A stretch of 35,392 bases of DNA from a virus, in IMG/VR virus record IMGVR_UViG_3300017768_000026, positions 1 to 35,392 of that record. The stretch is one strand, 5' to 3'. Shown piece by piece: positions 7,361 through 34,377 of the stretch. Position numbers and translations under genes: made by a program. Below the pieces are notes generated by a model that saw only the letters and a list, made by a program, of their open reading frames with translations, did no database searches and was not told the DNA's origin. Each line of letters opens with the position of its first letter. Positions within the stretch are counted from its first letter, which is position 1.

Positions 7361-7366
7361 TGTCAA
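7361..7366 (-). promoter_or_regulatory. TTGACA-N13-ATG element for the 7347 start
   Basis: TTGACA on the minus strand ends 13 bases before the ATG. With the plus-strand TTGACA at 7383-7388 it forms an inverted pair with 16 bases between the hexamers. Confidence 0.5.
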
Positions 7367-7382
7367 ACATGATAAAAATCGG

Positions 7383-7410
7383 TTGACATGCTTGAAATCT
7401 GGTGTAAACT
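7383..7410 (+). promoter_or_regulatory. sigma70-like promoter giving a probably leaderless glycosyltransferase mRNA
   Basis: TTGACA at 7383-7388 is followed 16 bases later by TAAACT (7405-7410). The ATG at 7418 is seven bases further. TTGACA to ATG is 29 bases, identical to the spacing at 1221-1256. Confidence 0.55.
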
Positions 7411-7417
7411 GCTCACT

Positions 7418-8275
7418 ATGAAGATTCTATTCACAACATTCGCCACCCCATCTGACTTCGACTGCCTAGAAAGTTCAGATAATTCTCTAATTTCTTTAGG
7501 GTTCGATCACACCTCTGATCGAGTCATCGTTGTCGAGTCCCACGAAGAAGCTGCCGAATATCGCGGACGGTTTCGAACTCAGGTTTCGGGCTTCGCGCGC
7601 GGAGCGACTCTAGATGGTATCGCTTGCGTGATGGGGATGATCGAAACTTGGAAAGATATTTTAGCACGCAACCCTTCCGTGACACACATCGCTAAAATGG
7701 ACGCCGACGTCTTGCTCAATGGCACGAAATTCGTCGATGTCCTATCAACTGGGAATTTCGATCACGTTGGACATCTGCGAGAACTGACTATCCGCGTCGA
7801 TGGAACTGACGAAATACGATCGCAGCTCTCATATGCGTGCGGTTCATTCTACATCTTGTCTCGCGAGATAATCGAAGCCATGCCATCTGGCGAGGCGCTG
7901 CGCGTGAGACTGTCGGGCATTGATGATGGCCTGACTGGCCATCTGTCGATGAAGCGCATTTCTGCGCCGTCTTGGCCGGAAGACGAAACGATTTCCTCAC
8001 TGACTCGCGAATTAGGTGCAAGGATCGCTTGGGAAGGTGATCACTGCCCGTTTGGGATATGGACGAGTTGGAGACACATGCCGCATCAGTCTGGTGAGTT
8101 TTCAATTGGCGAAGCTGCACGATGCAAATCCTTCGACGCCATCGACTTCGGGCGCACTGCGACAATCGCCAGCGAGGCATTCCCCACGCGCGAATCTCGA
8201 CGTGCAGTCACTGAGAAAATAATGGTTACGTTCCTTGGCCATAACGAACGTATGAATTACAACAAGTCTAAATGA
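7418..8275 (+). CDS. GT-A-like glycosyltransferase
   Basis: The start at ATG 7418 gives MKILFTTFATP; the longer frame begins inside the -35 box and is not credible. The 285-residue protein has a Rossmann-like start, a helical segment with METWKDIL, and THIAKMDADVLLN with Asp95-Ala-Asp97, a DxD-type metal and nucleotide-sugar site. YACGSFYILSREIIEAMP follows, as in GT-A enzymes, then a WxxE/D-type region. It probably moves a sugar onto phage DNA, a virion protein or the host surface; the acceptor cannot be told. It lies between two endonuclease gene copies and overlaps the HNH-AP2 gene by an ATGA, so the two travel and are translated together. Confidence 0.7.
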   Translation: MKILFTTFATPSDFDCLESSDNSLISLGFDHTSDRVIVVESHEEAAEYRGRFRTQVSGFARGATLDGIACVMGMIETWKDILARNPSVTHIAKMDADVLLNGTKFVDVLSTGNFDHVGHLRELTIRVDGTDEIRSQLSYACGSFYILSREIIEAMPSGEALRVRLSGIDDGLTGHLSMKRISAPSWPEDETISSLTRELGARIAWEGDHCPFGIWTSWRHMPHQSGEFSIGEAARCKSFDAIDFGRTATIASEAFPTRESRRAVTEKIMVTFLGHNERMNYNKSK

Positions 8276-8856
8276 ACAAAGGAAAAGCAAGATCCCTACC
8301 GCCACTGTCGAGACTGAATGAACTGTTCAGTCTCGACCACGAGACCGGTGAACTGACGTGGAAAGTGAGGCGTCGGGGAGTCAAAGTCGGCGCACGTGCA
8401 GGTTCATTCAACAAGTCAAACGGATACCGCAATCTTATGATTGATGGCGTTAACTACAGAGAACACCGTGTAATTTACTACATGGCAACCGGTCACGATC
8501 CTGGGAGTCTGCACATAGACCACATCGACACTGACCGGGCGAACAACCGACCAAGCAACCTGCAACTAGTGACGAATCAAGTGAATACGCAAGCGCAGAC
8601 AGTGAGTAAATACAATACGAGTGGATTCACTGGCGTCTCGTTCTACAAACAAACCGACAAGTGGCAAGCGCTAATCAAAATAGACGGGAAGAAGAAACAC
8701 CTAGGTTTGTTCGTAAACTTCGACGACGCCTGCACTGCACGAATCAAAGCAGAACTTCAGTTCTTTACAATCCAACCACGGCGGGAAGGTAAGCAACTTG
8801 AACTATACAACCGTCTCAGTCTCAGGCCCAGTCCCAGCCATAGCCCCAGTCCCTGA
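8272..8856 (+). CDS. HNH-AP2 homing endonuclease
   Basis: The 194-residue protein has an N-terminal recognition region (LSRLNELFSLDHETGELTW), an HNH nuclease core at about 62-105 (EHRVIYYMATG, then HIDHIDTDRANNRPSNLQLVT, with the paired His and Asn of the family) and a C-terminal AP2 DNA-binding domain (SGFTGVSFYKQTDKWQALIKI, HLGLFVNFDDACTARIKAEL). Such free-standing endonucleases cut DNA lacking the gene and spread by repair. The last 13 residues are Ser/Pro repeats (SPSHSPSP) encoded by a CCCAGT-type tandem repeat. Two related fragments lie at 5984-6354. Confidence 0.9.
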   Translation: MNKGKARSLPPLSRLNELFSLDHETGELTWKVRRRGVKVGARAGSFNKSNGYRNLMIDGVNYREHRVIYYMATGHDPGSLHIDHIDTDRANNRPSNLQLVTNQVNTQAQTVSKYNTSGFTGVSFYKQTDKWQALIKIDGKKKHLGLFVNFDDACTARIKAELQFFTIQPRREGKQLELYNRLSLRPSPSHSPSP

Positions 8857-8879
8857 CCCAGTCTCAATCCGGGTCGGGG
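8851..8879 (+). terminator. possible terminator between convergent genes
   Basis: CCCTGACCC (8851-8859) pairs with GGGTCGGGG (8871-8879) over nine pairs with one G-T wobble and an 11-base loop. ATTCTTTC follows on the plus strand. The T-run is weak, so terminator activity is uncertain; it includes the stop codon of the HNH-AP2 gene. Confidence 0.4.
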
Positions 8880-8888
8880 ATTCTTTCG

Positions 8889-13472: not shown

Positions 13473-13496
13473 CGGGTATGCGGTGGAGTTTAATGC

Positions 13497-14246
13497 TTAC
13501 TTATAGATCTGTTTCTTGAATTTCCCCATCATCCACTCTCTTGATATCCTGTAAACACTGCCGACTTTTGTGAAGTTCGCGCCCATATACAGCCACGTGT
13601 AGTCCGTCGCTTGTGGTGCGCCGCCGGGGGGATTACCGAGCTTACCGATCCCATCGAGAGAGGGAGGGGAACTGGAAACATACTTTTGACGCCAGCGAGC
13701 CGTATTCATAGCAAGGTAGGACTCAGTTCCGTGCAATGGGTGGCCGGACGCGAACCTGTCGAAATAGGTTCTGTTGTTTGTCCGGTAAGTGATCGAGTTG
13801 TTTTCCGCGTCTCGAAATATAGTATTATTCTCGCGGCTTGATTCCGCAGTGCCCCCAAAATCCTCCCCTTTGAAATTAGGGTGCGTTTCGATGGGGACAG
13901 AAGCTGCGCCTACTTGGAATTCATATTCCTTTTCTCCGTCGTCGTCTTGGCTCGTGTCTATGCTTATGCCCGTGTACGAGACCGAGACTGTGACTTGGGA
14001 CTCATCAAAGGTCGCTTGCCACGTGTCACGCTTCAGACCGTGCTCATTAGCGAGATCGCGGATCGGGAAGTTATCGACAACTCCTGTGATCAGCGTGTCT
14101 GAATCTTGCCCTAGGAAAGTCGCCTTTTCGCCTATGTAAGTCGCTTGTATGGAGACGCCTTGGCCCACAGCCTTTGTCATGGTCCATCCCGGTTGGAGGA
14201 CAAGCGAGGGGTTTCCGTAGGAGAGATTGTTGTTTCTTGACGCCAT
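13497..14246 (-). CDS. distal tail protein, unknown family (249 aa)
   Basis: The protein is beta-rich and soluble, with an N-terminal half of short strands (YGNPSLVLQPGWTMTKAV, QVTVSVSYTGISI), an acidic loop (DTSQDDDGEKEYEF) and a C-terminal half rich in Tyr, Trp and Arg (YFDRFASGHPLHGTE, TARWRQKYV). It lies between the tube-like protein 14262-15440 and the giant fibre, so it probably belongs to the tail tip or links the fibre to it. It starts 13 bases after TTGACA; AGGAAAG just before the ATG could also serve as a Shine-Dalgarno. No family is recognised. Confidence 0.7.
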   Translation of the reverse strand: MASRNNNLSYGNPSLVLQPGWTMTKAVGQGVSIQATYIGEKATFLGQDSDTLITGVVDNFPIRDLANEHGLKRDTWQATFDESQVTVSVSYTGISIDTSQDDDGEKEYEFQVGAASVPIETHPNFKGEDFGGTAESSRENNTIFRDAENNSITYRTNNRTYFDRFASGHPLHGTESYLAMNTARWRQKYVSSSPPSLDGIGKLGNPPGGAPQATDYTWLYMGANFTKVGSVYRISREWMMGKFKKQIYK

Positions 14247-14259
14247 ACTTTCCTAAATC

Positions 14260-14265
14260 TGTCAA
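14260..14265 (-). promoter_or_regulatory. TTGACA-N13-ATG element for the 14246 start
   Basis: The TGA inside this TTGACA is the stop codon of the upstream gene (14262-15440). Confidence 0.5.
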
Positions 14266-18400: not shown

Positions 18401-19225
18401 AAGGTTACCTTCCATCGCTTCCATCGCGCCGGACGTCCTGCCGAGTTCATCTGCAACGATCTTCCAGACACTCGAACCGCTCTTTCCTGACGCCGTCAGT
18501 TCTTCAAGTTGTGTCCGCGCGCGTCCAGAAACCAGCCCAAGCTCCTGCAATCTCATCGCAGCAAATCCTGGCGCTCTTCCCGACTGAAGGGAGTCGTACA
18601 ACCGACCTATGTTTCTCGCCGCTTCATCAAATCCGATACCGGCTACAGCTGCCGCATCACCCACCATCGTCATACCCTCAGCACCGGACAAAGCGCCACG
18701 AGTCAAGGTCTCCAACGTCTTGTTCGCACCGATGATATCTTCAAGTTCGAAAGGGGTCTTCATCGCGAAATCATTCATTTCGTCAACACGTTGTTTCGCC
18801 GCTTCGAGAGATTGCAGTAGTGGGGTGAACTGAGTGACCAGCTCTTCCATCCCCGCCGCTGTACCTATCGTCATCTTCTTCATGGCGTTCGCCAGGGAGT
18901 CGATCACTTTCAGCGACCCCAAAGCTACGCCAGTGAAAACCGACAATCTGCCGATCAGTTTTTCAGTAATCAACACACCCAGCACGTTCAGCGCGCCCTT
19001 CATCTTGGAACTACCAGTCTGGAAAACTAAAAACGACTCTAGGAAGATATCGCCAGCACCGCGCATTCGTTTGGACATGCGTTTGACGCCCTTCGTAGTC
19101 TGGTCAGCTGCTTTCGTCGCACCTTTTCCGAAATCTTCTGCTGACTTCGCAGCTTCGTCAAAGCCCTTCTTGAGAGAAGAGTCGAACTTAGCTTCTACGT
19201 TTAATTTTGTCGGATCATCGGCCAT
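15440..19225 (-). CDS. tape measure protein, 1261 aa
   Basis: The longest tail gene apart from the fibre. Residues 75-330 match the conserved N-terminal region of phage tape measure proteins (DEMNDFAMKTPFELEDIIGA, then GIGFDEAARNIGRLYDSLQS and APGFAAMRLQELGLVSG). Hydrophobic helices follow at about 335-400 and 490-520 (FLMGASASVAAAAFMILRD), and then a long Lys/Glu/Ala-rich coiled coil from about 530 to 1240. It sets tail length and is later ejected into the host envelope. At about 1.5 angstrom per residue, 1261 residues predict a tail of roughly 190 nm. The stop overlaps the next start (TAATG). Confidence 0.95.
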   Translation of the reverse strand: MADDPTKLNVEAKFDSSLKKGFDEAAKSAEDFGKGATKAADQTTKGVKRMSKRMRGAGDIFLESFLVFQTGSSKMKGALNVLGVLITEKLIGRLSVFTGVALGSLKVIDSLANAMKKMTIGTAAGMEELVTQFTPLLQSLEAAKQRVDEMNDFAMKTPFELEDIIGANKTLETLTRGALSGAEGMTMVGDAAAVAGIGFDEAARNIGRLYDSLQSGRAPGFAAMRLQELGLVSGRARTQLEELTASGKSGSSVWKIVADELGRTSGAMEAMEGNLSTLKSNFEDTVVKMKAGVGEQFLESEKMTTKALTDALEQATPTAVALARQLSIFPKMVASIKVKFIELGAAIVSSTGPIVAAFQVVQASLVAISSGAMLAGLGGIFKMFRGGSGDVKKASREITAGSKVAGSALSTLFKKRDPKKAWGLLKGAASIAIFGKASVDAASDAGQLVKGMKGVADVDTKGIKAGSRALGALGSVATGVLGTFKKLAKFVGGVLMDGIRAMKNPLFLMGASASVAAAAFMILRDRMKATSDAVNEMKKGAEAASKKLKDQAKDVRNANDATALYRDQVKALTSAQARLNKEEEKGNARRVKAAKDAVAAIKKTIADTVDLDVNSFAKSSDELAIDADKIFNIQRLKQQEREFRRTFMSPVDALKDLQKELDEVTKKADEAATSAADQKSFNNLLKFGDADRNAAGLDVDQGVKEFKEAADERAKIAAREVNRMNSIQKGSARISHDDALLGVEFTRSGDDLVKSMEEAKRLAESAKVPSFTVEDSGDNIDRLIDDLKLLAQIFPEREIKTDFEMTSNADDFKTMIEGVSGEFTKVVTDMRDAVGKDGFEKLNLSKLDEVTDKLDSAAKKARDAQDAFSAIPSIFEIEMEFNDDELIRIARQMKELDVEISNLSGGRRKDKVERNRKIGEKDTLAARKKFLEKENQLILSNAEADKQAIVQQIESREQQLKLAQDTAKIDAESASKAVGRSAADSQIDNIEAARKKLKLNEKTMDDDIFKSRNDALDSEEKAVKKIMEIRAEASRKETRIQQLNAEAAVASMRGQAEFASQALAEAKELQALLDDTARVKAITDAIPEGPERDAAIELSNKAAGASRESAELTAQRDIMLALKEQQALRAEIAGDSDMADKFQKEAQALRDQAEELEFIQSMNEANISQEQQESLLAAKREDDKKRREFEKNDVSRVVSDDMTKIGAGNRVTSVDPKMTPLQAEQKVTNDTLSRIFDEISEMNNKTPQGKGGPSNTNNVMR

Positions 19226-19238
19226 ATTTCTGGCCGTC

Positions 19239-19244
19239 TCTCAA
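19239..19244 (-). promoter_or_regulatory. TTGAGA-N13-ATG, one-mismatch copy of the recurring element
   Basis: TTGAGA ends 13 bases before the tape measure ATG. A perfect 12-base palindrome CTCACCGGTGAG lies a little upstream at 19259-19270, inside the end of the previous gene. Confidence 0.35.
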
Positions 19245-19248: not shown

Positions 19249-19866
19249 TTATTTTCCTCTCACCGGTGAGTCTTGAGTAGGGAGGACTCCTTGTTCCTGT
19301 AGTCGTTTGATGGCTGCGACGTGGTCTCTGTCTTCCTGAGTGACTAGCTTAAAGTCGGGAGATTCCAGACAATTGAATCCTGCACTGTACCAGTACGCGC
19401 GGCCTAGTGGCATAGTCCACACCTTATCTTCACACCATCCAGTGTGTTTTATCACGCTGCAGGCTAGTGAAAGCTCACTAGGCAGCATCTCTTGAGATCC
19501 GCCCTTGTTAACTGTCTTGTCTCCGCCGGTCGATTTGACTTCAGGCGGTGCAAACTGATCTTCGAGGTAGTTTTGGAACTTCTTGAATTCTGTTGATGGG
19601 TTGTACCGTAGCAATCGCCACCACCATACGAGATGGCCCAAGAGAGACACTTTAGTCGGAACCGACTTCGGCGCTTTCCCGTAGTCGGCGGAACAGATCC
19701 TGACGGCAAGTTCAAGATCGGTGATCGAGACTTGTTCACCCGATAAAATCGGAGATTCTATAGAACTCAACCAGAACTGATAGTATAGGCAGAACGGCTT
19801 CAGTGTACGACCGAAAACAACGTGCTCTTCAGTCGCAAAGCTCTCTCTAAACTCAAACCAAGTCAT
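19249..19866 (-). CDS. probable tail assembly chaperone-position protein (205 aa)
   Basis: It immediately precedes the tape measure gene, where tail assembly chaperones are found. The protein has an aromatic N-terminal half (FCLYYQFWLSS, GHLVWWWRLLRYNP), a short Lys/Gly linker (about residues 111-126), and a C-terminal helical part (SELSLACSVIKHTGWCED, GRAYWYSAGFNCLES, EDRDHVAAIKRLQEQG). I see no clear slippery site or second-frame extension, so the usual frameshifted two-form chaperone is not supported. It starts 14 bases after a TTGACA element. The chaperone call rests on position only. Confidence 0.55.
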   Translation of the reverse strand: MTWFEFRESFATEEHVVFGRTLKPFCLYYQFWLSSIESPILSGEQVSITDLELAVRICSADYGKAPKSVPTKVSLLGHLVWWWRLLRYNPSTEFKKFQNYLEDQFAPPEVKSTGGDKTVNKGGSQEMLPSELSLACSVIKHTGWCEDKVWTMPLGRAYWYSAGFNCLESPDFKLVTQEDRDHVAAIKRLQEQGVLPTQDSPVRGK

Positions 19867-19880
19867 TGCCTTGGCTTGCC

Positions 19881-19886
19881 TGTCAA
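19881..19886 (-). promoter_or_regulatory. TTGACA-N14-ATG element for the 19866 start
   Basis: It lies directly after the TAA of the upstream gene 19887-20570 and 14 bases before the ATG. Confidence 0.5.
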
Positions 19887-20570: not shown

Positions 20571-22146
20571 AATCAATGTAAGGGAATTCAATTTCGTTGT
20601 CTTCGGTCACTTCGCCGGTTACTCGATACAAACCTACAGAACCCAAAACGCCGCCGACTAATCCTGAGACGTTCACATTGTTGAATTGATGTCTTACGGG
20701 GTGTCTGTCTGCGGTTGAGGAGGCACTAGTGCCCGCTAGGAAGCTGTTGTTCGTGCCCTCGGTCACCCAATCGCCTCCCTTGAGTATTATCTCGCTCTCA
20801 CAATCGTTGTCATTATCTACAGTCGAAAATGCAAAGTAGCTGGTGCCCGAATTCGAATCGACTTGCTTGCGGAGAACCTTACCCACGTCTGCGATGACTC
20901 TAGCGGTCACGGGGGAAGCACCGGTTGCGGGAGCTATACCCGATGCGAATTGGTTCCAGGTCCGAAAACCTAGCGTCTTGGAGTAGACGAAGGTCTTTGC
21001 TTTGATGTAGGTGTCTGCGAGCACATCGACTTCAGTTTGTCCACTAGCCGTAGAGGCTGAGTAAGATACGACGCCGCCACCCTGCCCGACAGCGTCGATG
21101 TGGTCAATGTCGATCTCAAACACCGTCCTGCAAGGGTTGTTTCCGCGAACTGCGTTCCAAAAGAGATTAGTGCCAAGGTCGGCGGTAGCTACTAACGTTT
21201 TCGCACGTAGACAGAAGTAAGCGTTGCCAATCGAGCTTGTCGATTGTGGGTGGTAAAACATCCCATAGCTACCGGCGGAAGTGTGGGTGTTGTTCATGTG
21301 TACGGATATACCGCCACTCACTTCTACGTTGATGTAATGGTCATTGATAGTCCCATAACCAAGGTAGAGGAAACCATCTTCTTGTGTTAGCGATTTGCAC
21401 TTCAAGTAAGAACCGTTCTGGCAGTTGAGAAACGTGATCAACCGGCAAAGATTAGAGCCGCCACCGGCTCGACCGGGTGAAGATATGTGACCAGCATCAA
21501 TGTGGACGTCGCCTGCGAACGTCATACCGGAAGCAAAGCCGGAAACGTCGCCGAGTTCAAGTTTAACGTCTTTTGTCGGTGTTGTCGAGCAGTCGAACGA
21601 GTAACCGACGCGACTGGTGGGAGCTACGACATCAGGAAAGCCCAACAGGGTGAAGCAATCAATAGACTGGCACAAGAAACCGGGTTCGGCTGTAGTGTCA
21701 AAGGAGAACGTAACGCCAGGATCGCACTTGATCGTGGTGAACGCTACAGGCTCGACTTGGTTGGTCATCGAATACGTCCCAGTTTCTACGACGATAGTGT
21801 CGCCAGCACTTGATGCAGTAACTGCGGCGTAGAGAGTCAGAAACGGCCTGCTTGAATCCCACAACTTAACGCCGTTCACTGTCGTGTGTGAAGTCGCTGC
21901 TGTCGTATCGTCTCCGCGAAGTGATACGCGAAGCGTGTTGGCCGCCCACTGGTTCGCTGGTGTGGATGCGACCCAACCGGACCCGTCATAGACCTGTAAT
22001 TCTTCAGCTGTCGAGTTACGGACGATAGTTCCGGTCGGAACTGACGCCAAAGCATCGCGTTCAGCTTCCGTCAAGGAAGGGAAGACTACGCCTTCACTCG
22101 CGTTCGATAGATCGAGTCTATCGACGTCTATTACTTGTGTCGCCAT
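20560..22146 (-). CDS. beta-helix tailspike-like protein (528 aa)
   Basis: Residues 1-60 are the fibre head domain shared with 19887-20570 (VVFPSLTEAERDALASV, GTIVRNSTAEELQVYDGSGW). Residues 75-135 are a pectate-lyase-like entry (LRVSLRGDDTTA, SRPFLTLYAAVTASSAGDTI), also present in 22157-23635. The rest shows the short repeating strands and turns of a right-handed parallel beta-helix (GDVHIDAGHISSP, SLTQEDGFLYLGYGTI, INVEVSGGISVHM). Such spikes bind or cut host polysaccharide; no catalytic residues can be assigned. CTGACA lies 16 bases before the ATG, a poor match to the recurring element. Confidence 0.75.
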   Translation of the reverse strand: MATQVIDVDRLDLSNASEGVVFPSLTEAERDALASVPTGTIVRNSTAEELQVYDGSGWVASTPANQWAANTLRVSLRGDDTTAATSHTTVNGVKLWDSSRPFLTLYAAVTASSAGDTIVVETGTYSMTNQVEPVAFTTIKCDPGVTFSFDTTAEPGFLCQSIDCFTLLGFPDVVAPTSRVGYSFDCSTTPTKDVKLELGDVSGFASGMTFAGDVHIDAGHISSPGRAGGGSNLCRLITFLNCQNGSYLKCKSLTQEDGFLYLGYGTINDHYINVEVSGGISVHMNNTHTSAGSYGMFYHPQSTSSIGNAYFCLRAKTLVATADLGTNLFWNAVRGNNPCRTVFEIDIDHIDAVGQGGGVVSYSASTASGQTEVDVLADTYIKAKTFVYSKTLGFRTWNQFASGIAPATGASPVTARVIADVGKVLRKQVDSNSGTSYFAFSTVDNDNDCESEIILKGGDWVTEGTNNSFLAGTSASSTADRHPVRHQFNNVNVSGLVGGVLGSVGLYRVTGEVTEDNEIEFPYIDYGY

Positions 22147-22156
22147 ATGTTGAAGA

Positions 22157-23635
22157 TTATGTTGTCAGATACTGGATGGATCCGCCACCTGCATTAGAAA
22201 CGGGTGTCGAAGCTGTGATGAAACCAAGGTCGAAGTAACTGACCGAGCTTGCGTTCTGGATTAAGACCCCGGTTCCGCCTGGGTTTGTGATCATCGGCCT
22301 ACCCGTGATTGTGCTCGTGACTGCGGAATTACCGTCATCTATCCCCGTCACGGTTACGCCAGACATGTGAATTGTCAGGTTCGTCTTCAGAGTCAGCGTC
22401 TCGGAGTAGATACCCGGCTCCACGTATACTTGTTCGCCGTTCGAACTTGCGCCTGAGTCGTTAGCTGCGTTTATGGCTGCGGTGATCGTCTGAAACGGCT
22501 TGGTAGAGTCCCAAGTATTGAAACCACCAAGGGCGACTTTAGAAGCTAAGGCCGTGGTATCATTGCCATTCTTGGCAACGCGCAACTGGCTGGCGATCGG
22601 CTCACTCGTGTCGAGTGAAGTTCTTACCATCGTGACAGCGCCTGCAGTGTCTACCCAGAAAACAGAAGTGGGCGAACTGGACGCATTATCGTCGCCGGTA
22701 TAATAGAGCAACCTGTCGGTGATACCTTCTGCGGTGGAAACGACTTCGGCTTCTGCTGCTGTCGGTTGGCCTGCGGTGGCTGGCGCTGTGGCGGTGTTCG
22801 TTAGGTGGAATCGAGGCGCGTCGTTACTGCTACCAACTAAAATAAATCGCACTGTGTCGAACGAAGACGTGGATATGTGGCTCACTGCGCACTGATAAAG
22901 TCGATCTGAGTGCCAAGCCTGCTCACCCTTTACAAATGACACGCCTGAAGACCAGTTCGGTGCGAACGAATCGAGACGGGTTCCGTCAGCTGCGACGTCA
23001 CGCCCGTCTATGGTGGACGTCGTCGTTAGAGCGCCAGTGAGGCTCACTGCGCCTGATTCGAGAGTCGTTACAGATAACGCGCCTGAATCGTCAAGAGTCG
23101 CAGATGAAGGCTGGATGTCTCCGCCAGTGCCATCGTATCGAGCAAGACTATTGTCGGTGGTCGTCGCAGGTTTGACGACTAGGTCAGACAATGCGATCAG
23201 ATCACCCGCGCCGATGTCCAAGGCTATGGTTGCGTCACTGGTATAGTCACCGGCTACGACGTAGACTCTGCCGGAGTCTGCGACCACGTCCCCGGCTACG
23301 TAGGACGTGCCCGTCTGCCAGTCGTCGGGTAGCTCGTTCACGGCTGCGCTCGACAAGGTCACCCAGTTCGATGAGTCTGCCGCAAATGTAGAAAGACTCG
23401 TTCCAGCAGAAATTCGAGAGTAGATCACGCCGGAAACAGCGACTTGATCATTTTTCGAGTAGGCTTGTGCAGAAACCCACTCGTTCGGGAGCACGTTGAA
23501 CCTAGCGTCAAGCGCTGCATTCGTGACTGGTCGGGTGCTTACTGAGTCTAGAGCAGAATCTGCACCGGTAAAGGTTGCCCCGGTGATATCTATCGCGGTG
23601 TCTACGTTCAAGCTTGAGATGTTACGTGCGGCCAT
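22157..23635 (-). CDS. fibre protein with carbohydrate-binding-like repeats and beta-helix (492 aa)
   Basis: Three modules resemble the chitin-binding type 5/12 fold: WVSAQAYSKNDQVAVSGVIY (about 53), WQTGTSYVAGDVVADSGRVY (about 105) and WSSGVSFVKGEQAWHSDRLY (about 227). From about residue 345 comes the same beta-helix entry as in 20560-22146 (QLRVAKNGNDTTA, NTWDSTKPFQTITAAINAA, QVYVEPGIYSETL), followed by beta-helix rungs. It is likely a host-surface glycan-binding fibre. It is the first gene after the terminator behind the tail tube, and starts 13 bases after TTGACA. Confidence 0.75.
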   Translation of the reverse strand: MAARNISSLNVDTAIDITGATFTGADSALDSVSTRPVTNAALDARFNVLPNEWVSAQAYSKNDQVAVSGVIYSRISAGTSLSTFAADSSNWVTLSSAAVNELPDDWQTGTSYVAGDVVADSGRVYVVAGDYTSDATIALDIGAGDLIALSDLVVKPATTTDNSLARYDGTGGDIQPSSATLDDSGALSVTTLESGAVSLTGALTTTSTIDGRDVAADGTRLDSFAPNWSSGVSFVKGEQAWHSDRLYQCAVSHISTSSFDTVRFILVGSSNDAPRFHLTNTATAPATAGQPTAAEAEVVSTAEGITDRLLYYTGDDNASSSPTSVFWVDTAGAVTMVRTSLDTSEPIASQLRVAKNGNDTTALASKVALGGFNTWDSTKPFQTITAAINAANDSGASSNGEQVYVEPGIYSETLTLKTNLTIHMSGVTVTGIDDGNSAVTSTITGRPMITNPGGTGVLIQNASSVSYFDLGFITASTPVSNAGGGSIQYLTT

Positions 23636-23648
23636 ATATTTCGAGATC

Positions 23649-23654
23649 TGTCAA
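23649..23654 (-). promoter_or_regulatory. TTGACA-N13-ATG element for the 23635 start
   Basis: It starts right after the T-run of the 23655-23693 terminator, so no other promoter fits between terminator and gene. Confidence 0.55.
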
Positions 23655-23693
23655 CAAAAGAAAAGGGCGAGCAGCACTAAGCCACTCGCCCTT
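23655..23693 (-). terminator. rho-independent terminator after the tail tube gene
   Basis: On the minus strand AAGGGCGAG and CTCGCCCTT form a 9-bp stem with an 11-base loop, followed by TTTTCTTTTG. It lies 45 bases after the tail tube stop codon, and ends directly at the next TTGACA. Confidence 0.75.
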
Positions 23694-24331: not shown

Positions 24332-24335
24332 AATT

Positions 24336-24584
24336 TTAGTTTTTCTTGGTTGTTGGTTTCTTGGTTGGTTTCCTTAGTTTAAAGCTTGCGAATGGTTGTG
24401 GCTCAGGCTCAGGCTCAGGCTCAGGCTCCGGGGTATAATCCCAATCGATTTCACCGAAATACAGCCAGCACACACCGTTTAGCTCCGCCTTGTCGGTGAC
24501 TTTGCCGAACGAATAATAGTTCTCGCCGATTTCGATTGAATCCCAATTGTGTTTAAAAATGGATATACCAAAGCGTTTCGCCAT
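24336..24584 (-). CDS. small tail-module protein with Pro-Glu repeat and basic tail (82 aa)
   Basis: ATG 24584 is chosen because it lies 14 bases after TTGACA; the frame is open further upstream but without support. The first 50 residues form a compact domain (FKHNWDSIEIGENYYSFGKV, GVCWLYFGEIDWDY). Then come a (Pro-Glu)6 repeat encoded by a hexanucleotide tandem repeat and a basic tail KKPTKK-like. It sits between the tail terminator and the tube protein. No family is recognised. Its A/C-rich last codons double as the leader of the tube gene four bases downstream. Confidence 0.6.
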   Translation of the reverse strand: MAKRFGISIFKHNWDSIEIGENYYSFGKVTDKAELNGVCWLYFGEIDWDYTPEPEPEPEPEPQPFASFKLRKPTKKPTTKKN

Positions 24585-24598
24585 ACTATTGACTGTGG

Positions 24599-24604
24599 TG
24601 TCAA
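24599..24604 (-). promoter_or_regulatory. TTGACA-N14-ATG element for the 24584 start
   Basis: With the plus-strand TTGACA at 24616-24621 it forms an inverted repeat, TGTCAAC, nine bases, GTTGACA, in the 74-base divergent gap. Confidence 0.5.
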
Positions 24605-24639
24605 CTTTCACCCGGTTGACACGGTAGCCATCTCAGCCG

Positions 24640-24645
24640 TTGACA
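24640..24645 (+). promoter_or_regulatory. TTGACA-N13-ATG element for the 24659 start
   Basis: The only plus-strand copy at this spacing. Another TTGACA lies 18 bases upstream at 24616-24621. Confidence 0.5.
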
Positions 24646-24658
24646 CGTGGCGGTGTGT

Positions 24659-25090
24659 ATGTCCGACATATTTCACCGCCTAGAGCACGGCCTTGTTGAT
24701 TTCTTGAGTTCTCAGCTGACTGGCGTCAACGTATACACTGGCGATAGTGGAAGTTCGGTGATAACTCCTTATGTGGCTGTCTATTCAACCGAGGCGGAGA
24801 CTCTCAACACAATCGGGGACTCAACCACCGATTTCGTTGATGTTCGGGTTATCGTTGCAACTGACATCGATAATGACGCCCCCACCTTGGTTACTGAGAT
24901 CTCTTCTCAACTCAGATCGGCTATCGACCTGATCGATGAGGGATCCTGGGAAGATTCGACGCGGGAGCTAGTTATTCACGGGATGCAGAAACTTTCAACG
25001 GATCGGGCGAACCGTGGTCAGAGTCGTGGTATCATTTACCGTTACCGCGTAGCTGCGAGCTATCGAGAGAACTCGGCAGGGAACTGTTGA
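24659..25090 (+). CDS. probable tail terminator/completion protein on the opposite strand (143 aa)
   Basis: The protein starts MSDIFHRLEHGLVDFLSSQL, then beta strands (TPYVAVYSTEAETL), then DFVDVRVIVATDIDNDAP leading into a helix (LVTEISSQLRSAID), and a final strand RGIIYRYRVAASY. This order, with an N-terminal helix and the strand-then-helix core, resembles lambda gpU/DUF3168-type tail terminators. Its place between connector genes and the tube gene is the terminator position, but it is the only gene from 8889 to 35392 read in the plus direction. Its 3' end overlaps the 25032-25247 ORF tail to tail by 59 bases. ATG 24659 is chosen over 24647 because of the spacing to TTGACA. Confidence 0.6.
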   Translation: MSDIFHRLEHGLVDFLSSQLTGVNVYTGDSGSSVITPYVAVYSTEAETLNTIGDSTTDFVDVRVIVATDIDNDAPTLVTEISSQLRSAIDLIDEGSWEDSTRELVIHGMQKLSTDRANRGQSRGIIYRYRVAASYRENSAGNC

Positions 25091-25247: not shown

Positions 25248-25248
25248 C

Positions 25249-25578
25249 CTAGAAGAAGTCGCTGCCACGAGGATTCTCGGCAGATGTTTCTAGCCGGTAT
25301 CCCGCCCCACCCATCGATACTACTGAGGTGACTCGTGTCGTGATTGATCCTGCGATTACTTTCGTCCCTTTGATCGGTGCGGCCAGCGCGTGAACGGCTT
25401 CACTGATGTGAATTTCGTAGCGATCCTCAACCCGCTTCCCGCCGGGAGTAGCTGAGTTCGTGCTCTCGATTGGGCTTACGATACCGGGGACGGATACGCC
25501 GCCTATGTCTAAGATCTCCGACATCAAAGCCTCCGCAGCTTCAACGTCGTCCAAGAAACAATCGTCGAAAATACTCAT
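25249..25578 (-). CDS. head-tail joining protein (109 aa)
   Basis: The 109 residues include an acidic N-terminal segment and a beta core (VEDRYEIHISEAVHALAAPI, TTRVTSVVSMGGAGYRLETS), the pattern of lambda gpFII-like head-tail joining proteins, and it lies where they are found, between the capsid and tail tube genes. Its ATG overlaps the stop of the Lys-rich gene 25575-26252 (ATGA), so they are translationally coupled. The family assignment is by size, strand pattern and position. Confidence 0.65.
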   Translation of the reverse strand: MSIFDDCFLDDVEAAEALMSEILDIGGVSVPGIVSPIESTNSATPGGKRVEDRYEIHISEAVHALAAPIKGTKVIAGSITTRVTSVVSMGGAGYRLETSAENPRGSDFF

Positions 25579-26252
25579 GATTGGCCTTTGCTGAATGTTG
25601 TCTCCGATTGACCGTGTTCAGCGATCAACTTGCGCAGCTTCTTTTTACGCTTATCGCGCTTAGAATCCCTGCTGTATGCGGAGAATTCTTCGGGCTTTTC
25701 GTCTTCTGTCTTGTCTTTCGACTTGCCCTTGCTTTCTTTCATCTTCTTCAGTTCTAGTTTCTTGTTTAGAATCTGCTGCTTGTTGGTCTGATTAGCTTTC
25801 CCGCCCGCCCCCGCGATGACTGAACCGGCTGCGATCGCTGCAGACGCTGCTAGGCCAGCTTTCCCCAGCTTCTTCTTACCCTTGGATAGTTTCTCTGCCG
25901 CTGCTTTCAAAACTGCGCCAGACGCCACGAGACCGGCTGTAGAGCCTACGTTTCGCTTGCTGGTAGCTGCTTTGGCTGTCCTGGTCACGATCTCTTTACG
26001 CAATCGGAGTTTCTTCCTGAAATCTGATTCCTCGAAGTTGAGTAGTTCATCAACATCGTCAAGCAGGTCTTTAGGTAAGTCAGAGTCTTCAAATTTCAGA
26101 AGCTTGTTGAGAGCTTTACGTGAGTTCACGAGACCCATTCCCACGAGTATCGTCATCACGCCTTGCAGACGACCTTTCGCTTTCTCTTCGCGCTTTTCGG
26201 CTTTCTCCGCTTTCTTGTATAGTCTAGAATTCTCTCGATCTGCCCTGAACAT
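25575..26252 (-). CDS. lysine-rich protein with Ala/Gly hydrophobic segment (225 aa)
   Basis: ATG 26252 is preferred over GTG 26261 because it is 13 bases after TTGACA. The protein has a highly charged N-terminal coiled segment (KKAEKAEKREEKAKGR), an acidic middle (LLDDVDELLNFEESDFRKKL), an Ala/Gly stretch able to pack as a hairpin in or on a membrane (about 105-155: GLVASGAVLKAAAEKL, GLAASAAIAAGSVIAGAG) and a basic tail (SKRDKRKKKLRKLIAEHG). Similar composition is seen in 29794-30735 and 30757-31143. Binding of packaged DNA or an internal virion role is possible. It is the first gene after the terminator behind the major capsid gene. Confidence 0.65.
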   Translation of the reverse strand: MFRADRENSRLYKKAEKAEKREEKAKGRLQGVMTILVGMGLVNSRKALNKLLKFEDSDLPKDLLDDVDELLNFEESDFRKKLRLRKEIVTRTAKAATSKRNVGSTAGLVASGAVLKAAAEKLSKGKKKLGKAGLAASAAIAAGSVIAGAGGKANQTNKQQILNKKLELKKMKESKGKSKDKTEDEKPEEFSAYSRDSKRDKRKKKLRKLIAEHGQSETTFSKGQS

Positions 26253-26265
26253 ATTTATCACTGTG

Positions 26266-26271
26266 TGTCAA
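26266..26271 (-). promoter_or_regulatory. TTGACA-N13-ATG element for the 26252 start
   Basis: It overlaps the last bases of the T-run of the 26270-26308 terminator. Confidence 0.55.
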
Positions 26272-26308
26272 AAGAAAAACCCCTCACCGGTTCGAGTCCG
26301 GTGAGGGG
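26270..26308 (-). terminator. strong rho-independent terminator after the major capsid gene
   Basis: CCCCTCACCGG and CCGGTGAGGGG form a perfect 11-bp stem with a seven-base loop, then on the minus strand TTTTTCTTTT. The right arm is followed on the plus strand by TTTGATTGTTTT, so it may act in both directions. It lies 19 bases after the capsid stop codon. Confidence 0.85.
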
Positions 26309-26327
26309 TTTGATTGTTTTCGCGGTA

Positions 26328-27287: not shown

Positions 27288-27332
27288 TTGATTTTAGTAG
27301 TTTAAGTGTTGTTTGGTTTGTTTGTGTCGGGA

Positions 27333-27710: not shown

Positions 27711-27753
27711 GTGTTTGTTTGTTTGTTTGTTGTGTTGGATTTGTTTTGGTTAA

Positions 27754-28911
27754 TTACAGAGCGCCGATACCTTTGAGATACTCGCGGTATAGCTCAGGCT
27801 CGTCGTTCACAACCTTCTCGGATGCGTCAGAAAAGTTCATCTCTTTCTCACCCATCAAGCTTTGAACGCGAGATTCAAACTGTGAAGAAGCTTCAACAAC
27901 TTCAGTTGCGACTTCGCTCTTTGCGGGCGCGTCACCGAGGTTGGATGCGCCATGCTTGAGGGCTTCAATCTCAGCGTCACGCTCTTCGAGGATCTCACCG
28001 AAAGCCACCAGGGCGTCTTCGAGTTCTTCAATCTTAGCGTTAAACTCAACTTCCGTGTCGCTTGGCTCTTCGTTTGCGCTTGCTTCAACCAAAGCGTCAA
28101 CCTTGGCCTCGAACTCGGCAGACTCTTCGCCAGCTACGTCAGCCAATAGATCGGCTACAGCTTCAACTTCTTCGTCGGTAAGTTCGTCAGATGATTCTTC
28201 AGAAACTTCGTCAGCAGACACTTCGTCGGCTGCGACTTCGTCAGTCACGTCTTCTTCTTCGTTTACTTCCTCGTTAGCTTCTTCGAAGCCTTTAAGGAGT
28301 TCGGTCTGGAATTCTTCCAGTTTAGCAATTTGGTCGGCTTGGGCTGCGCTGAACTCGGAGATTTTCTTGAGTTCTTCGAGAACCGCCGATAATTCGGTTG
28401 GTTTGTCCATATCTTCGTTGTCGCTGTCAACTTCCTTGGCTTCAAATAGTCCGTTCACGTTTGCGGCAGGGTTTGCGACCCAGTCCACGCTTACGAGCTT
28501 TTTAACACGTGCGTATGTTTTATCTCCAACAGTCTCGGGTGTTCCGCGAAACGCTGCAGATAGTCCGATGCCTGTAGGCATGCGCTCCGCCATTTCAAGC
28601 AAGTGGTCGAATTTGTCGTGGAATTTAAGCAAGTGCAAATCACCGCGCAGTTGGTTTCCTTCGACGCGGAAGTTTTCCAGATATCCAACAACCGCATCAG
28701 CACCGCTGCCGTGGTTTAATTTGACTGGAACTTGCTTCATGCCGCAGGCTTCGTCGTGCATTTGACCGACACAGACGGAATCAACGTGCAGGTTGTGCCC
28801 GAGGGCGATCAGATCGCCAGTGATCACGGACACGCCCTTGATGACGCCGTTCTCACGGTCTACCCGACCCTCTGCCGATAGGGCTGCTTCTAAATTATAT
28901 AAGGTTGACAT
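27754..28911 (-). CDS. capsid maturation protease fused to scaffold (385 aa)
   Basis: Residues 1-155 are a prohead protease domain: VPVKLNHGSG with His67, a strand GYLENFRVEGNQLRGDLHLL, then PTGIGLSAAF with Ser118 and a VDWVANPAAN segment with Asp143, the His/Ser signature of HK97-type capsid proteases. Residues 160-385 are a very acidic, helical Glu/Ala/Asp-rich region, including DEVAADEVSADEVSEESSDE, as in scaffolds that are removed after assembly. The C-terminal part (NDEPELYREYLKGIGAL) probably binds the capsid protein. It cleaves itself and the scaffold during maturation. No separate scaffold gene is seen nearby, supporting a fusion. Confidence 0.85.
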   Translation of the reverse strand: MSTLYNLEAALSAEGRVDRENGVIKGVSVITGDLIALGHNLHVDSVCVGQMHDEACGMKQVPVKLNHGSGADAVVGYLENFRVEGNQLRGDLHLLKFHDKFDHLLEMAERMPTGIGLSAAFRGTPETVGDKTYARVKKLVSVDWVANPAANVNGLFEAKEVDSDNEDMDKPTELSAVLEELKKISEFSAAQADQIAKLEEFQTELLKGFEEANEEVNEEEDVTDEVAADEVSADEVSEESSDELTDEEVEAVADLLADVAGEESAEFEAKVDALVEASANEEPSDTEVEFNAKIEELEDALVAFGEILEERDAEIEALKHGASNLGDAPAKSEVATEVVEASSQFESRVQSLMGEKEMNFSDASEKVVNDEPELYREYLKGIGAL

Positions 28912-28930
28912 ATTACTAATAGGCTCGTCG

Positions 28931-29305
28931 TCAATCAGATGATTTCATCTTGGCGGTTTTCGACTTGTTTTTAGGCGTTTTTCGGTCTGCGAGTTGTTCG
29001 ATGCACCACTCAATGAGTTGAGGGGAATCTTTTAGGATCGTCGTCAGACCTGTGGCGATCGCGCTCACCGTCTCTTCTTCGGTTGCACCGTCTTCTATCC
29101 CGAGTATGCTCGTGATCCCGTGTAGGGCTTCGTGGATGACTGTGTCTACGACTATGTCGGTGGCAATGTCTTCGTCGCTGGCGACTTTGATGGTTTGGCT
29201 TGGCGCGTAGCAGTAGCCATAGCGCTCTGGGATGTCGAGAGAGTCAACCCACTCTATTTTATAATCTCGCGATAGGATTCGGACGGTGTTTGGGCGTTGA
29301 GTCAT
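28931..29305 (-). CDS. small HExxH metallopeptidase-like protein (124 aa)
   Basis: The start at ATG 29305 follows TTGACC by 13 bases; the longer frame begins at a GTG. Residues 58-62 are HEALH, the zinc-metallopeptidase HExxH motif, at the end of a hydrophobic helix (IATDIVVDTVIHEALHGI), and an acidic ATEEETVSAI about 15 residues later could give the third ligand Glu. The N-terminal half is a strand-rich domain (VRILSRDYKIEWVDSL). The C-terminus is a Lys-rich tail. Short proteins with HEALH and a later EExV are frequent in siphophages; their substrate is unknown. Its TGA forms part of a TTGACG element before the next gene. Confidence 0.75.
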   Translation of the reverse strand: MTQRPNTVRILSRDYKIEWVDSLDIPERYGYCYAPSQTIKVASDEDIATDIVVDTVIHEALHGITSILGIEDGATEEETVSAIATGLTTILKDSPQLIEWCIEQLADRKTPKNKSKTAKMKSSD

Positions 29306-29318
29306 GCCCCTCACCGGG

Positions 29319-29324
29319 GGTCAA
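29319..29324 (-). promoter_or_regulatory. TTGACC-N13-ATG, one-mismatch copy of the recurring element
   Basis: Its TGA is the stop codon of 29321-29779. The spacer contains GTGAGGGG, which could also act as Shine-Dalgarno. Confidence 0.35.
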
Positions 29325-29779: not shown

Positions 29780-29793
29780 AAAATTTGTAAAGT

Positions 29794-30735
29794 CTACTTC
29801 TTTTCGGACTTCTTCTGGCGAGCTTCTTTAACCAAGCTCTTGAGATCCTGCTCGGTCAGCTTGTCGCTCGCTGCCTTGGATGCTTCGCGGTTCTTCTTGC
29901 GGAGCAATTGAGCGGCAGACGCTGCGGCAACGGCTGCGGTGACTTTACCGGCTTTTGTCAGCTTAGTCTTGCCTGCAACCTTCTTAAGCTTGGCAACGCG
30001 GCTATCTGTTGCGGCTGCGGTAGCACCACCGATTCCGGCTGCTGCTGCTAGGTTGCCTTTTGAGTTGAGAGTTTTACGACCCTCTTCACGCGCGTTCAAG
30101 CGATCAGCAATCTTCTGGGACGTTTCGTCGCCTTCTTTGCCTTTGTAGCGGATAGCGAACTCCACCAACTCACTGATGCTGCGCTCTTGACCTGCTTCAA
30201 AGCCATATTTTTTCTTGAAGTCGTCAGCTTTCTTGGAAACCTTCTTTTTAGCAACTCCAGCTTTCTCGCTTGCGACTTTCTTGGCATCGCCGAGCTTCTC
30301 GCTTGCGACTTTCTTAGCTTCGGCTAGCTTCTCGCCGCCGACTTTCTTGGCATCGCCGAGCTTCTCGCTTGCGACTTTCTTGGCTTCGGCCACCTTCTCG
30401 CCACCGACTTTCTTAGCATCGCCAAGCTTCTCGCCAGCAACTTTCTTAGCTTCGGCTAGCTTCTCGCCACCGACTTTCTTGGCCACGGCTGCTTTCTCGC
30501 CCACAACCTTCTTAGACGCTGCGATCTTCTGTCCTGCAATCTTCTTCAGAGCAGCGATCCGCTGTGGTCCTGCTTTCTTGGCGGCTGCGACGCCAGCTGC
30601 ACCGGCTGCGCCGACTGCTGCCACTTTGGCCATCTTCTTGAGTAGGCTTTGCTTCTTCTGCTTTTCTTCATCAGTCGCCGCGAATTTGTATTCGATTAGC
30701 GCGTCTAGTTTTTCGTTGAGTTCGATGTGGTCCAT
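29794..30735 (-). CDS. LEA/histone H1-like repeat protein (313 aa)
   Basis: After a short N-terminal helix (residues 1-36) and an Ala/Gly stretch (37-57), residues 64-162 hold nine 11-residue units of the type KKV(G/A)(G/S)EKLxxA, then a Lys-rich end (VSKKADDFKKKYGF). Eleven-residue Lys/Glu/Ala repeats occur in LEA proteins and Lys/Ala-rich tandem tails in histone H1-like proteins. Residues 180-313 include a folded part (SISELVEFAIRYKGK) and a second Ala/Gly stretch (NLAAAAGIGGATAAATDS) with a basic tail. Its place next to the portal and protease suggests a head-internal or DNA-condensing protein. Its leader is A/C-rich (ATAAACACACACACGACA). Confidence 0.65.
   Translation of the reverse strand: MDHIELNEKLDALIEYKFAATDEEKQKKQSLLKKMAKVAAVGAAGAAGVAAAKKAGPQRIAALKKIAGQKIAASKKVVGEKAAVAKKVGGEKLAEAKKVAGEKLGDAKKVGGEKVAEAKKVASEKLGDAKKVGGEKLAEAKKVASEKLGDAKKVASEKAGVAKKKVSKKADDFKKKYGFEAGQERSISELVEFAIRYKGKEGDETSQKIADRLNAREEGRKTLNSKGNLAAAAGIGGATAAATDSRVAKLKKVAGKTKLTKAGKVTAAVAAASAAQLLRKKNREASKAASDKLTEQDLKSLVKEARQKKSEKK
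30250..30546 (-). repeat. nine 33-base tandem repeats coding for KKVxxEKLxxA units
   Basis: Units alternate between KKVGGEKLAEA and KKVASEKLGDA types, so a 66-base higher-order period has probably been duplicated. The reading on the opposite strand stays open by composition only. Confidence 0.85.
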
Positions 30736-30756
30736 TGTCGTGTGTGTGTTTATAGT

Positions 30757-32818: not shown

Positions 32819-32836
32819 CAGGTCGGTTCTTAACGG

Positions 32837-33085
32837 TTAGCAATTCCAGTCGATTTGGCCAGTCACGCCGCCGCCCATGTTGTTGGACGCGGAACGGCGT
32901 GAAAGCTCAATCCCCACAGCTTGCAGGCGGTCTTCGAGCATTTTAGCAGAGCGGGTATATGTCTTAGAGCCTACACCCTGCGAATCGAAGAACGATTTTA
33001 GCTGTTCGATGATCCGCGCGCGCTCTTCGGCGAGTTCGGTTGCGGTGAGGTGCTGAAAGAATGCGGTATACTTAGTCGCGGACAT
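32837..33085 (-). CDS. gpW-like head-tail connector (82 aa)
   Basis: An 82-residue helical protein with TATELAEERARIIEQLKSFF and TRSAKMLEDRLQAVGIELSR, the two-helix pattern of lambda gpW, which binds below the portal. The order gpW then portal is the lambda order. It starts 13 bases after TTGACA. The C-terminal NNMGGGVTGQ is flexible. The assignment is by size, helices and position. Confidence 0.65.
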   Translation of the reverse strand: MSATKYTAFFQHLTATELAEERARIIEQLKSFFDSQGVGSKTYTRSAKMLEDRLQAVGIELSRRSASNNMGGGVTGQIDWNC

Positions 33086-33098
33086 ATATCACGCCCCC

Positions 33099-33104
33099 TG
33101 TCAA
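33099..33104 (-). promoter_or_regulatory. TTGACA-N13-ATG element for the 33085 start
   Basis: The hexamer is the right arm of a 7-bp hairpin, GTCAATC, four bases, GATTGAC (33100-33117 region), which contains the stop codon of the upstream gene. Confidence 0.5.
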
Positions 33105-33347
33105 TCAACCGATTGACTGCGCTGCTTTCTTCTTAGGGGCTGCTTTCTTTTTAGGTGCTGGTGCTGGTGCTGGCTTTTCGGCTTTCAGCCCAACGAGATC
33201 TTTCAGATCGTTGGCGTCGTCTACGACCTGCAGGACGATCGGACCAATGAAGACGGCTGCACCATACTCGGTCGGAGTGATGCGGCTGATGTGATCGGTA
33301 TTGAGTAGCTCTTTTCCGGTGTTCGTGTTTACTTCGATGAATGGCAT
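33105..33347 (-). CDS. small protein with Lys/Ala/Pro tail (80 aa)
   Basis: The first 50 residues form a compact beta-like unit (LLNTDHISRITPTEYGAAVF, IGPIVLQVVDDANDLKDLVG). A tail of about 25 residues follows with PAPAPAPKKKAAPKKKAA. It lies between the amidase and gpW-like genes, so it could be a lysis or head accessory protein. No family is recognised. Translation starts after an A/C-rich leader with eight AACC repeats. Confidence 0.55.
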   Translation of the reverse strand: MPFIEVNTNTGKELLNTDHISRITPTEYGAAVFIGPIVLQVVDDANDLKDLVGLKAEKPAPAPAPKKKAAPKKKAAQSIG

Positions 33348-33350
33348 GGC

Positions 33351-33382
33351 GGTTGGTTGGTTGGTTGGTTGGTTGGTTGGTT
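33351..33382 (-). repeat. (AACC)8 leader repeat before the 33347 start
   Basis: Eight tetranucleotide units (AACC on the minus strand, GGTT on the plus strand) lie 3 bases before the ATG, in a 45-base stretch with almost no G on the transcribed strand, after the stop of the amidase gene. Confidence 0.9.
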
Positions 33383-33392
33383 TTGGTTTTGG

Positions 33393-34025
33393 TTATTTTT
33401 CGAGCTTCTTTGCAATCGCTTGCAACTGCTTACTGATGAGAGTCAACTCATCGGAAATTTCGCGGTTACTCGCGGCCATCGGCCCATCAGGCTCCTGGCG
33501 CTGTAATCCGAGACCGGCTGCGATCGCTTTAGCAAACAGCGCAGGAGTCCCCGGCCACTGAAGCCAGCGCGCGGCTTCTGGGTTTGAGATAAATTCGCAC
33601 TCCACTAAGATCGCAGGCATAGCCGTGTACCGAAGCACGGCAAATCCCCGCTCTTTGACGCCCCGATGATTGGACTCAGGCTGTAGGATCGGCAGGCATG
33701 ACGAATACACAGACTCAGCGAGCTTCGCGCCTGCACGGCTTCCGGGGTTGTGAAATACCTCAAACCCACGAGCGTTGCTGTCGGCGCTGTTTGCATGTAT
33801 CGAGACGAAAAGATCCGCATCGGCACGGTTGGCGATGTCTGCACGTTGGCGCAGACCAAGAAACGTGTCATCATCACGAGTGAGTCTGATGTTGTCAGGC
33901 GCTAATGCTTGTAGCTGCCGGGCGACCTTTAGGACAAAATCTTTCTCACGCATTCCGTTTCCGATTGCGCCGGGATCTTCTCCGCCGTGTCCCGCGTCCA
34001 CCATAATCTTTAGGTTGCTTACCAT
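33393..34025 (-). CDS. N-acetylmuramoyl-L-alanine amidase (Amidase_3 endolysin)
   Basis: This is a 210-residue Amidase_3 enzyme. The Zn ligands are His13 (DAGHGGEDPGA), Glu27 (MREKDF) and His77 (LFVSIHANS), and Glu142 (AILVECEFISNP) is the catalytic acid. It cleaves the bond between N-acetylmuramic acid and L-alanine of peptidoglycan. There is no signal peptide, so it needs a holin. The C-terminal 30 residues are a helical tail. Its ATG overlaps the stop of the holin-like gene (ATGGTAA), and it lies within the lysis cluster. Confidence 0.95.
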   Translation of the reverse strand: MVSNLKIMVDAGHGGEDPGAIGNGMREKDFVLKVARQLQALAPDNIRLTRDDDTFLGLRQRADIANRADADLFVSIHANSADSNARGFEVFHNPGSRAGAKLAESVYSSCLPILQPESNHRGVKERGFAVLRYTAMPAILVECEFISNPEAARWLQWPGTPALFAKAIAAGLGLQRQEPDGPMAASNREISDELTLISKQLQAIAKKLEK

Positions 34026-34357
34026 TTTCCGATGTCTTCGAGGTTTGGGTGCGTTAGCTGTGGGTGGGATTGTCCGTAGGGCGTAGGCGCGGGCTGGGAC
34101 TGTGGCTGTGGCTGTGTCGCTGCCGCGCGTTTCGTCTGCTCTTTAGCAACGAAAATTTTCAGCACCTTACGCACTGCCGCGTAAGATCCACCCGAGATTC
34201 CGAGTATGCCTAGGGCTAGGTTTACGTCCACATCTAGGTCTATGCCTAGCCAGATCTCACTGGCTAGTTGTGCGATGATCGTGACCGACGCTATTAGCAT
34301 GGCGAGCCACGTGACCTTATATTCTGATGTCTTATTTCCGTCAGTTTCAGGAGCCAT
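34019..34357 (-). CDS. holin-like membrane protein (112 aa)
   Basis: Two hydrophobic segments (about 14-38: VTWLAMLIASVTIIAQLASE, and 45-61: VNLALGILGISGGSYAAV) are separated by a short acidic turn, and a basic tail with Pro-Gln repeats (TQPQPQSQPAPTP) follows. This two-helix layout of about 110 residues, next to the amidase gene, fits a class II-like holin. The tail includes a hexanucleotide repeat. The start lies 14 bases after TTGACA. Holin activity is inferred. Confidence 0.7.
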   Translation of the reverse strand: MAPETDGNKTSEYKVTWLAMLIASVTIIAQLASEIWLGIDLDVDVNLALGILGISGGSYAAVRKVLKIFVAKEQTKRAAATQPQPQSQPAPTPYGQSHPQLTHPNLEDIGKW

Positions 34358-34371
34358 ATTATCTATACTGA

Positions 34372-34377
34372 TGTCAA
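34372..34377 (-). promoter_or_regulatory. TTGACA-N14-ATG element for the 34357 start
   Basis: The TGA inside it is the stop codon of the endonuclease gene 34374-34904. A GCCGAG, six bases, CTCGGC hairpin lies just upstream at the end of that gene. Confidence 0.5.

Follow-up and report, generated by a model that had tools for sequence, protein, structure and literature searches.

Late promoters that are short and lack a -10 are already known from jumbo phages with polymerases of their own. AR9 (AACA-6N-T|A/G) and phiKZ (TAT|G) have very short motifs near the start point, without classical -35 and -10 boxes and in some cases within genes; they are read by phage multisubunit polymerases, and the AR9 leaders measure 26–491 nt (PMC5312081, PMC4666361). 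Promoter elements adjacent to the start codon are likewise known from Deinococcus-Thermus, where the sigma -10 motif TANNNT lies a few bp from the open reading frame (ORF), at a set distance from the ATG, and gives leaderless mRNA (PMC12340547). In Akkermansia, a Verrucomicrobium, 10% of transcript starts are leaderless (PMC4782308). In leaderless sigma70 promoters, among them those of early genes of the phage studied here, a distance of about 29 nt separates TTGACA from the ATG and a proper -10 is present. Here we analysed a 35.4 kb phage contig (IMG/VR record IMGVR_UViG_3300017768_000026, 35,392 nt, hereafter the window) in which the hexamer TTGACA recurs 13–17 nt before the ATG of late genes without a -10. 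In contrast to AR9 and phiKZ, the genomes concerned are of about 35–54 kb, no polymerase was recognised in them and the element is located at the ATG; TTGACA without a -10 also sets it apart from the Deinococcus-Thermus motif. In the open-access papers searched, we came across no account of non-jumbo phages in which one -35-like hexamer is coupled to the ATG.

In the window, a lambda-like head and tail module occupies mainly the minus strand, and DNA polymerase and exonuclease are encoded on the plus strand; as no terminase genes were recognised, the contig is probably incomplete, with the terminase region missing. A 10 kb contig (L002) is 99.99% identical to it. On both strands together TTGACA-N13/14-ATG was found 10 times against 0.72 expected, a count reached by none of 100 dinucleotide shuffles. 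The hexamer as such is not over-represented (20 copies versus 22 expected), and half of its copies lie 13–14 nt from an ATG. The histogram of TTGACA-to-ATG spacings is a spike, with six cases at 13, four at 14 and no more than two at any other value. Among curated starts, spacings of 13–17 nt held 10 exact and four one-mismatch hexamers, compared with 0–2 exact and 0–1 one-mismatch hexamers in each of the remaining 5-nt bins tested. A sequence-only reading of this DNA had named nine exact sites, all of them correct, together with TTGAGA-N13 at 19225 and TTGACC-N13 at 29305, which were both verified, and had rightly placed the pattern far beyond chance. Its list was not complete, however, as there is a tenth site at 28430-28408 (-) as well as one-mismatch variants, and the fixed spacing of 13–14 nt that it proposed gives way to a range of 13–17 nt.

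On the minus strand, exact sites precede a 112-aa holin-like gene at 34019-34357 (TTGACA-N14-ATG, 34355..34377, its TGA being the stop codon of the upstream HNH gene), an 82-aa gene in the head-tail connector position preceding the portal gene (N13, 33083..33104), where the genes of relatives also bear the signal, a gene at 19249-19866 (N14, 19864..19886), a tail gene at 13497-14246 (N13, 14244..14265) and a gene at 7042-7347 that is divergent from 7418(+) (N13, 7345..7366). The one-mismatch hexamers of the curated-start scan, also on the minus strand, are TTGACC-N13-ATG at 29303..29324 (gene 28931-29305), TTGACG-N17-ATG at 28909..28934 (head protease gene, start 28911; exact TTGACA-N14 in the protease gene of relatives), CTGACA-N16-ATG at 22144..22168 (gene 20560-22146) and TTGAGA-N13-ATG at 19223..19244 (1261-aa tape-measure-like gene, start 19225). 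The other five exact sites are described below.

A motif scan of IMG/VR retrieved the relative L117, with a portal about 31% identical to that of the window, and an alignment of these two portals yielded 15 loci apart from that of the window itself, including G001–G005 (contigs of 54, 47, 32, 26 and 24 kb; G001 is the same as L225); portals of distant relatives were 31–33% identical. At the detectable starts orthologous to the eight signal-bearing genes of G001, exact TTGACA was present in 23 of 23 cases (G002–G005 and L237), which are not 23 independent events because the relatives are akin to one another, versus 1 of 98 orthologous starts of other genes. Retention of the genes with loss of the hexamer, named beforehand as the outcome that would speak against a signal, was thus not seen: the relatives keep both at all of these starts. 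The spacing drifts within 13–17 nt between orthologues. In the 37 non-redundant sites of this first relative set only TTGACA and ATG carry strong information, and columns upstream of TTGACA hold ≤0.3 bit each. ATG is the almost exclusive start codon, apart from a single GTG in G002 and one GTG in L289. The base before the ATG is T at 27 of these 37 sites, compared with 52 of the 172 other starts, which matches the pyrimidine-purine step of bacterial start sites.

The tenth window site (TTGACA-N14-ATG, 28408..28430 (-)) is internal to the protease gene 27754-28911 and precedes the in-frame Met of its 218-aa scaffold-like C-terminal part, a nested ORF in the protease frame (MDKPTELSAVLEEL..., 27754..28410 (-)). 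In five of five relatives, TTGACA-N17-ATG stands at the corresponding place inside the equivalent gene (protease homology 38%), and in GC-rich relatives the internal site is located about 593 nt into the protease gene; every lineage examined has TTGACA at the nested scaffold start. In both the window and the first relatives, the nested hexamer coincides with codons for Val-Asp (GTTGAC A). An internal start in the protease gene also yields the scaffold in lambda C/Nu3, the difference being that here the internal start bears the same TTGACA element as stand-alone genes.

A terminase alignment scan returned 80 loci, 57 of which have at least one qualifying TTGACA-ATG pair; the pair that recurs in the isolate group L310–L325 falls within the terminase gene itself and was excluded as signal. 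A clade of 57–61% GC has five to seven sites in each better-covered locus (up to seven per 12–22 kb), and L289, a member of this clade, has seven against 0.45 expected. L238, from a Verrucomicrobiales metagenome bin (terminase 36% and portal 24% identical to those of G001), has three TTGACA in 5.9 kb, each 13–15 nt before a gene's ATG; these genes are the protease gene and those in the terS and connector positions. A large, mostly uncultured phage group marks about a quarter of its predicted late genes with TTGACA 13–17 bases before the ATG. A head-to-head pattern scan of IMG/VR was rejected as proof of this breadth, its matches being mostly divergent sigma70 extended -10 promoters, although L117 came out of it. 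A portal scan of bacterial genomes gave no match, and a DNA-polymerase alignment scan recovered remote phages only, none with the signal.

The best cultured match to the terminase of the GC-rich clade is Akkermansia phage Moulinsart (350 bits versus 232 for the next), making a Verrucomicrobia host likely, and the hosts of the signal-bearing phages are probably Verrucomicrobia. Host chromosomes are not enriched: across 94 genomes of the order, TTGACA-N13/14-ATGGC is no commoner than spacing 20–21. Phages P8625 and Moulinsart lack the signal, even though they share distant head genes. AGACGGYRGGG-like stretches occur in Moulinsart (L004) at 2789-2799, 4644-4654 and 15318-15328, a short distance upstream of gene 2808, in the connector position, and of genes 4684 and 15339; there are 11 matches with at most one mismatch against 2.2 expected, possibly an analogous signal of different sequence. 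In P8625 (L003), starts 5448, 10772, 15594 and 22442 are preceded by TTGACA at a distance of about 30 nt from the ATG, and three of the four also have GTATC...(G)GATAC-like repeats directly before the ATG.

Several elements abut terminators or open divergent genes. The T tracts of strong intrinsic terminators (-19.8 to -29.1 kcal/mol) merge into TTGACA twice in the window and also in G002, L238, L267, L292/L294 and L264. In the window, the terminator 3′ of the major capsid gene (26277..26311 (-), 14-bp stem, -26.3 kcal/mol) is immediately followed by the TTGACA-N13-ATG of gene 25575-26252 (26250..26271 (-)), and that at 23663..23693 (-) (13-bp stem, -23.5 kcal/mol) by the TTGACA-N13-ATG of gene 22157-23635 (23633..23654 (-)). 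In the window one of these sites comes after the capsid region, and the same probably applies, judging by gene position, to L267, L292 and L264. A terminator should end incoming transcripts, so the next gene would need a new start within about 20 nt. Head-to-head gene pairs with two sites, no sigma70 -10 and no other recognisable promoter are found at 24582-24661 of the window and in G001, G004, G005 and G007; the window pair consists of TTGACA-N13-ATG at 24640..24661 (+), preceding the inverted gene 24659-25090 (tail-terminator-like by inspection), and TTGACA-N14-ATG at 24582..24604 (-), preceding gene 24336-24584. The capsid gene, expectedly the most expressed, is without the signal in the window and G001, which fits a signal for the start of a unit better than a signal for ribosomes.

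We consider that the element is probably the core of a phage late promoter that gives rise to leaderless or nearly leaderless late mRNAs. TTGACA would be recognised by RNA polymerase, most likely that of the host after its redirection by a putative phage product, and RNA would begin 13–17 nt downstream of the hexamer, at the ATG or no more than a few bases away. Every element would open one short transcription unit, for example that of the nested scaffold, a decoration-like protein and the major capsid protein, which would end at the terminator abutting the next element. The action in transcription, the start point and the existence of a reader are what we infer; what was seen directly is the motif with its spacing, the fact that orthologous starts, the nested start among them, conserve it, the abutting terminators and the lack of a -10. 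We count the near-exclusive conservation of the hexamer at signal-bearing starts in favour of a late promoter, and the window phage's own sigma70 promoters put the ATG at the expected transcript start point. The wider proposal of an undescribed late start system in non-jumbo phages, in which a -35-like hexamer without a -10 and 13–17 nt from the ATG would direct leaderless starts gene by gene, also inside genes, through a separate initiation factor, has in our estimate an even chance of being right.

Chance or an annotation artefact, to which we assign practically no probability, is refuted by the shuffle counts, the conservation in orthologues, the sites in the GC-rich clade and the excess in L289; the occurrence of TTGACA near the ATG is real. 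Stop-codon bias, which the sequence-only reading had rightly discounted, and reinitiation at stop codons were rejected, as TGA is the upstream stop at just 19 of 72 non-redundant sites. That reading was also right that these are not ordinary sigma70 promoters, an explanation in which TTGACA would be the -35 and the ATG part of an extended -10 (TRTG). The hexamer is identical to the -35 consensus, N13 sets the ATG at the extended -10 position, and elsewhere TTGACA-N13-ATG is often an ordinary extended -10 promoter (TTGACA-N12-TRTGn-TATAAT), as are most unfiltered IMG/VR matches. Nevertheless, no -10 hexamer was found 16–19 nt downstream of TTGACA at any of the ten window sites (best 1–3 of 6 matches), sigma70 geometry would put the transcript start about 16 nt inside the gene, and spacings of 15–17 nt are incompatible with it. 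True sigma70 promoters of the same phage look different: TTGACA-17-TACAAT at 1221..1258 (+) and TTGACA-16-TAAACT at 7383..7420 (+) have the ATG 6 nt and 7 nt past the -10, respectively, where a leaderless transcript would start. TTGACA thus has two uses: in the early region it comes with a -10 and is separated from the ATG by 29 nt, and in the other use the distance is 13–17 nt and there is no -10. The geometry refutes sigma70 promoters, which we regard as highly improbable here, as long as the start annotation is not in error at every site. Binding of TTGACA by a regulator of the phage, whether an activator, a repressor or a factor of antitermination or RNA processing, with action on promoters or transcripts elsewhere, would suit the inverted hexamer pairs in both divergent window regions (24599-24621 and 7361-7388) and the TATAGT/TGTAGT-like stretches just 5′ of TTGACA in some relatives. 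It is doubtful, given that the constrained quantity is the distance to the ATG, that the upstream sequence is nearly information-free and that no consistent -10 is present upstream or downstream of TTGACA.

The main rival is a translation-initiation signal in the mRNA: UUGACA, positioned 13–17 nt before the AUG, would replace the Shine-Dalgarno sequence in late genes, and either the ribosome, one of the ribosomal proteins or a factor of the phage would bind to it. The start codon is nearly always ATG, the 5-nt spacing range is like that of a Shine-Dalgarno sequence, which is present at none of 31 other window starts, sense-strand TTGACA is depleted outside the sites, and an intragenic start is classically served by an internal ribosome site (compare lambda C/Nu3). 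On the other hand, most late genes, capsid included, are without TTGACA, and sites are found next to terminators and at the head of divergent genes, which require a promoter in any case. For Verrucomicrobiota, an extended 16S tail was rejected as the pairing partner, since just 1 of 195 genomes has TGTCAA after the anti-Shine-Dalgarno, although the actual host may differ. We regard a translation signal as a serious but unlikely alternative and place clearly more weight on transcription; the sequence-only reading had held the two equal, and the evidence now favours the promoter.

Several points weigh against a late promoter. The 5-nt spacing range is also like that of a ribosome signal, six bases are little information for a promoter core, and terminators can be read through. 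Antisense TTGACA is depleted in the first relative set (14 versus 43), as expected for a promoter, whereas the GC-rich clade shows no such depletion (31 versus 37); since the clades disagree, depletion was given little weight as a test of transcription. The GC-rich clade also lacks the T preference before the ATG (C 19, T 15, A 9, G 6), so that T at -1 as an initiator is valid in one clade only. Finally, no polymerase, sigma factor or other reader was recognised in the window or the relatives examined. Sigma region 2 (PF04542) had no match in the relatives, the window itself lacking the terminase region, and for sigma region 4 there was one sub-threshold PF08281 match (11.7 bits, in G001) and none significant; Pfam sigma models therefore lend no support in relatives to the phage sigma-like factor that had been suggested. 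PF00940 (T7-like polymerase) had no match in G000–G003, but control genomes gave none either and the window is incomplete; the roughly 20 contiguous conserved bp of a T7-like promoter are absent. Inspection of the ORF list of G001, which appears near complete because genes from both of its ends neighbour each other in G003, showed no obvious polymerase, including multisubunit ones, no beta/beta′ search having been made. A weak lead to the putative reader is a 158-aa helix-turn-helix protein encoded directly upstream of terS in G001, G003 and L237, and also found in L217 and L336. The position next to terS holds late activators in some other phages. This candidate is absent from the GC-rich clade loci.

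Further features were noted in passing. Several TTGACA-free starts in the window have A/C-rich, unstructured-looking leaders resembling those of P8625 (27288-27332, 27711-27753 and 33348-33392), possibly Shine-Dalgarno-free translation leaders. Early genes of G001 (e.g. starts 16760, 17064, 18632 and 27305) share a recurrent TTCGAAT..GTAGA..(AGCGTA)ATG-like upstream stretch that is probably an early promoter family. The window also contains fragments of HNH/AP2-type endonuclease genes as direct and inverted repeats that are 82–83% alike (6210-6272, 8284-8393 and 34917-34979), and a 33-nt tandem repeat (30197-30592) that encodes KKVAGEKLAEA-type repeats of the protein at 29794-30735.

The TTGACA rule is useful for annotation, having picked out L117 by motif alone. 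If the element is a translation signal, it would represent a non-Shine-Dalgarno ribosome element. If it is a promoter, TTGACA sits where sigma region 4 cannot, so a different reader would have to exist, and the search for it would narrow to genes common to a recognisable clade. Such a promoter would also explain late expression without Shine-Dalgarno sites, as well as the production of the nested scaffold.

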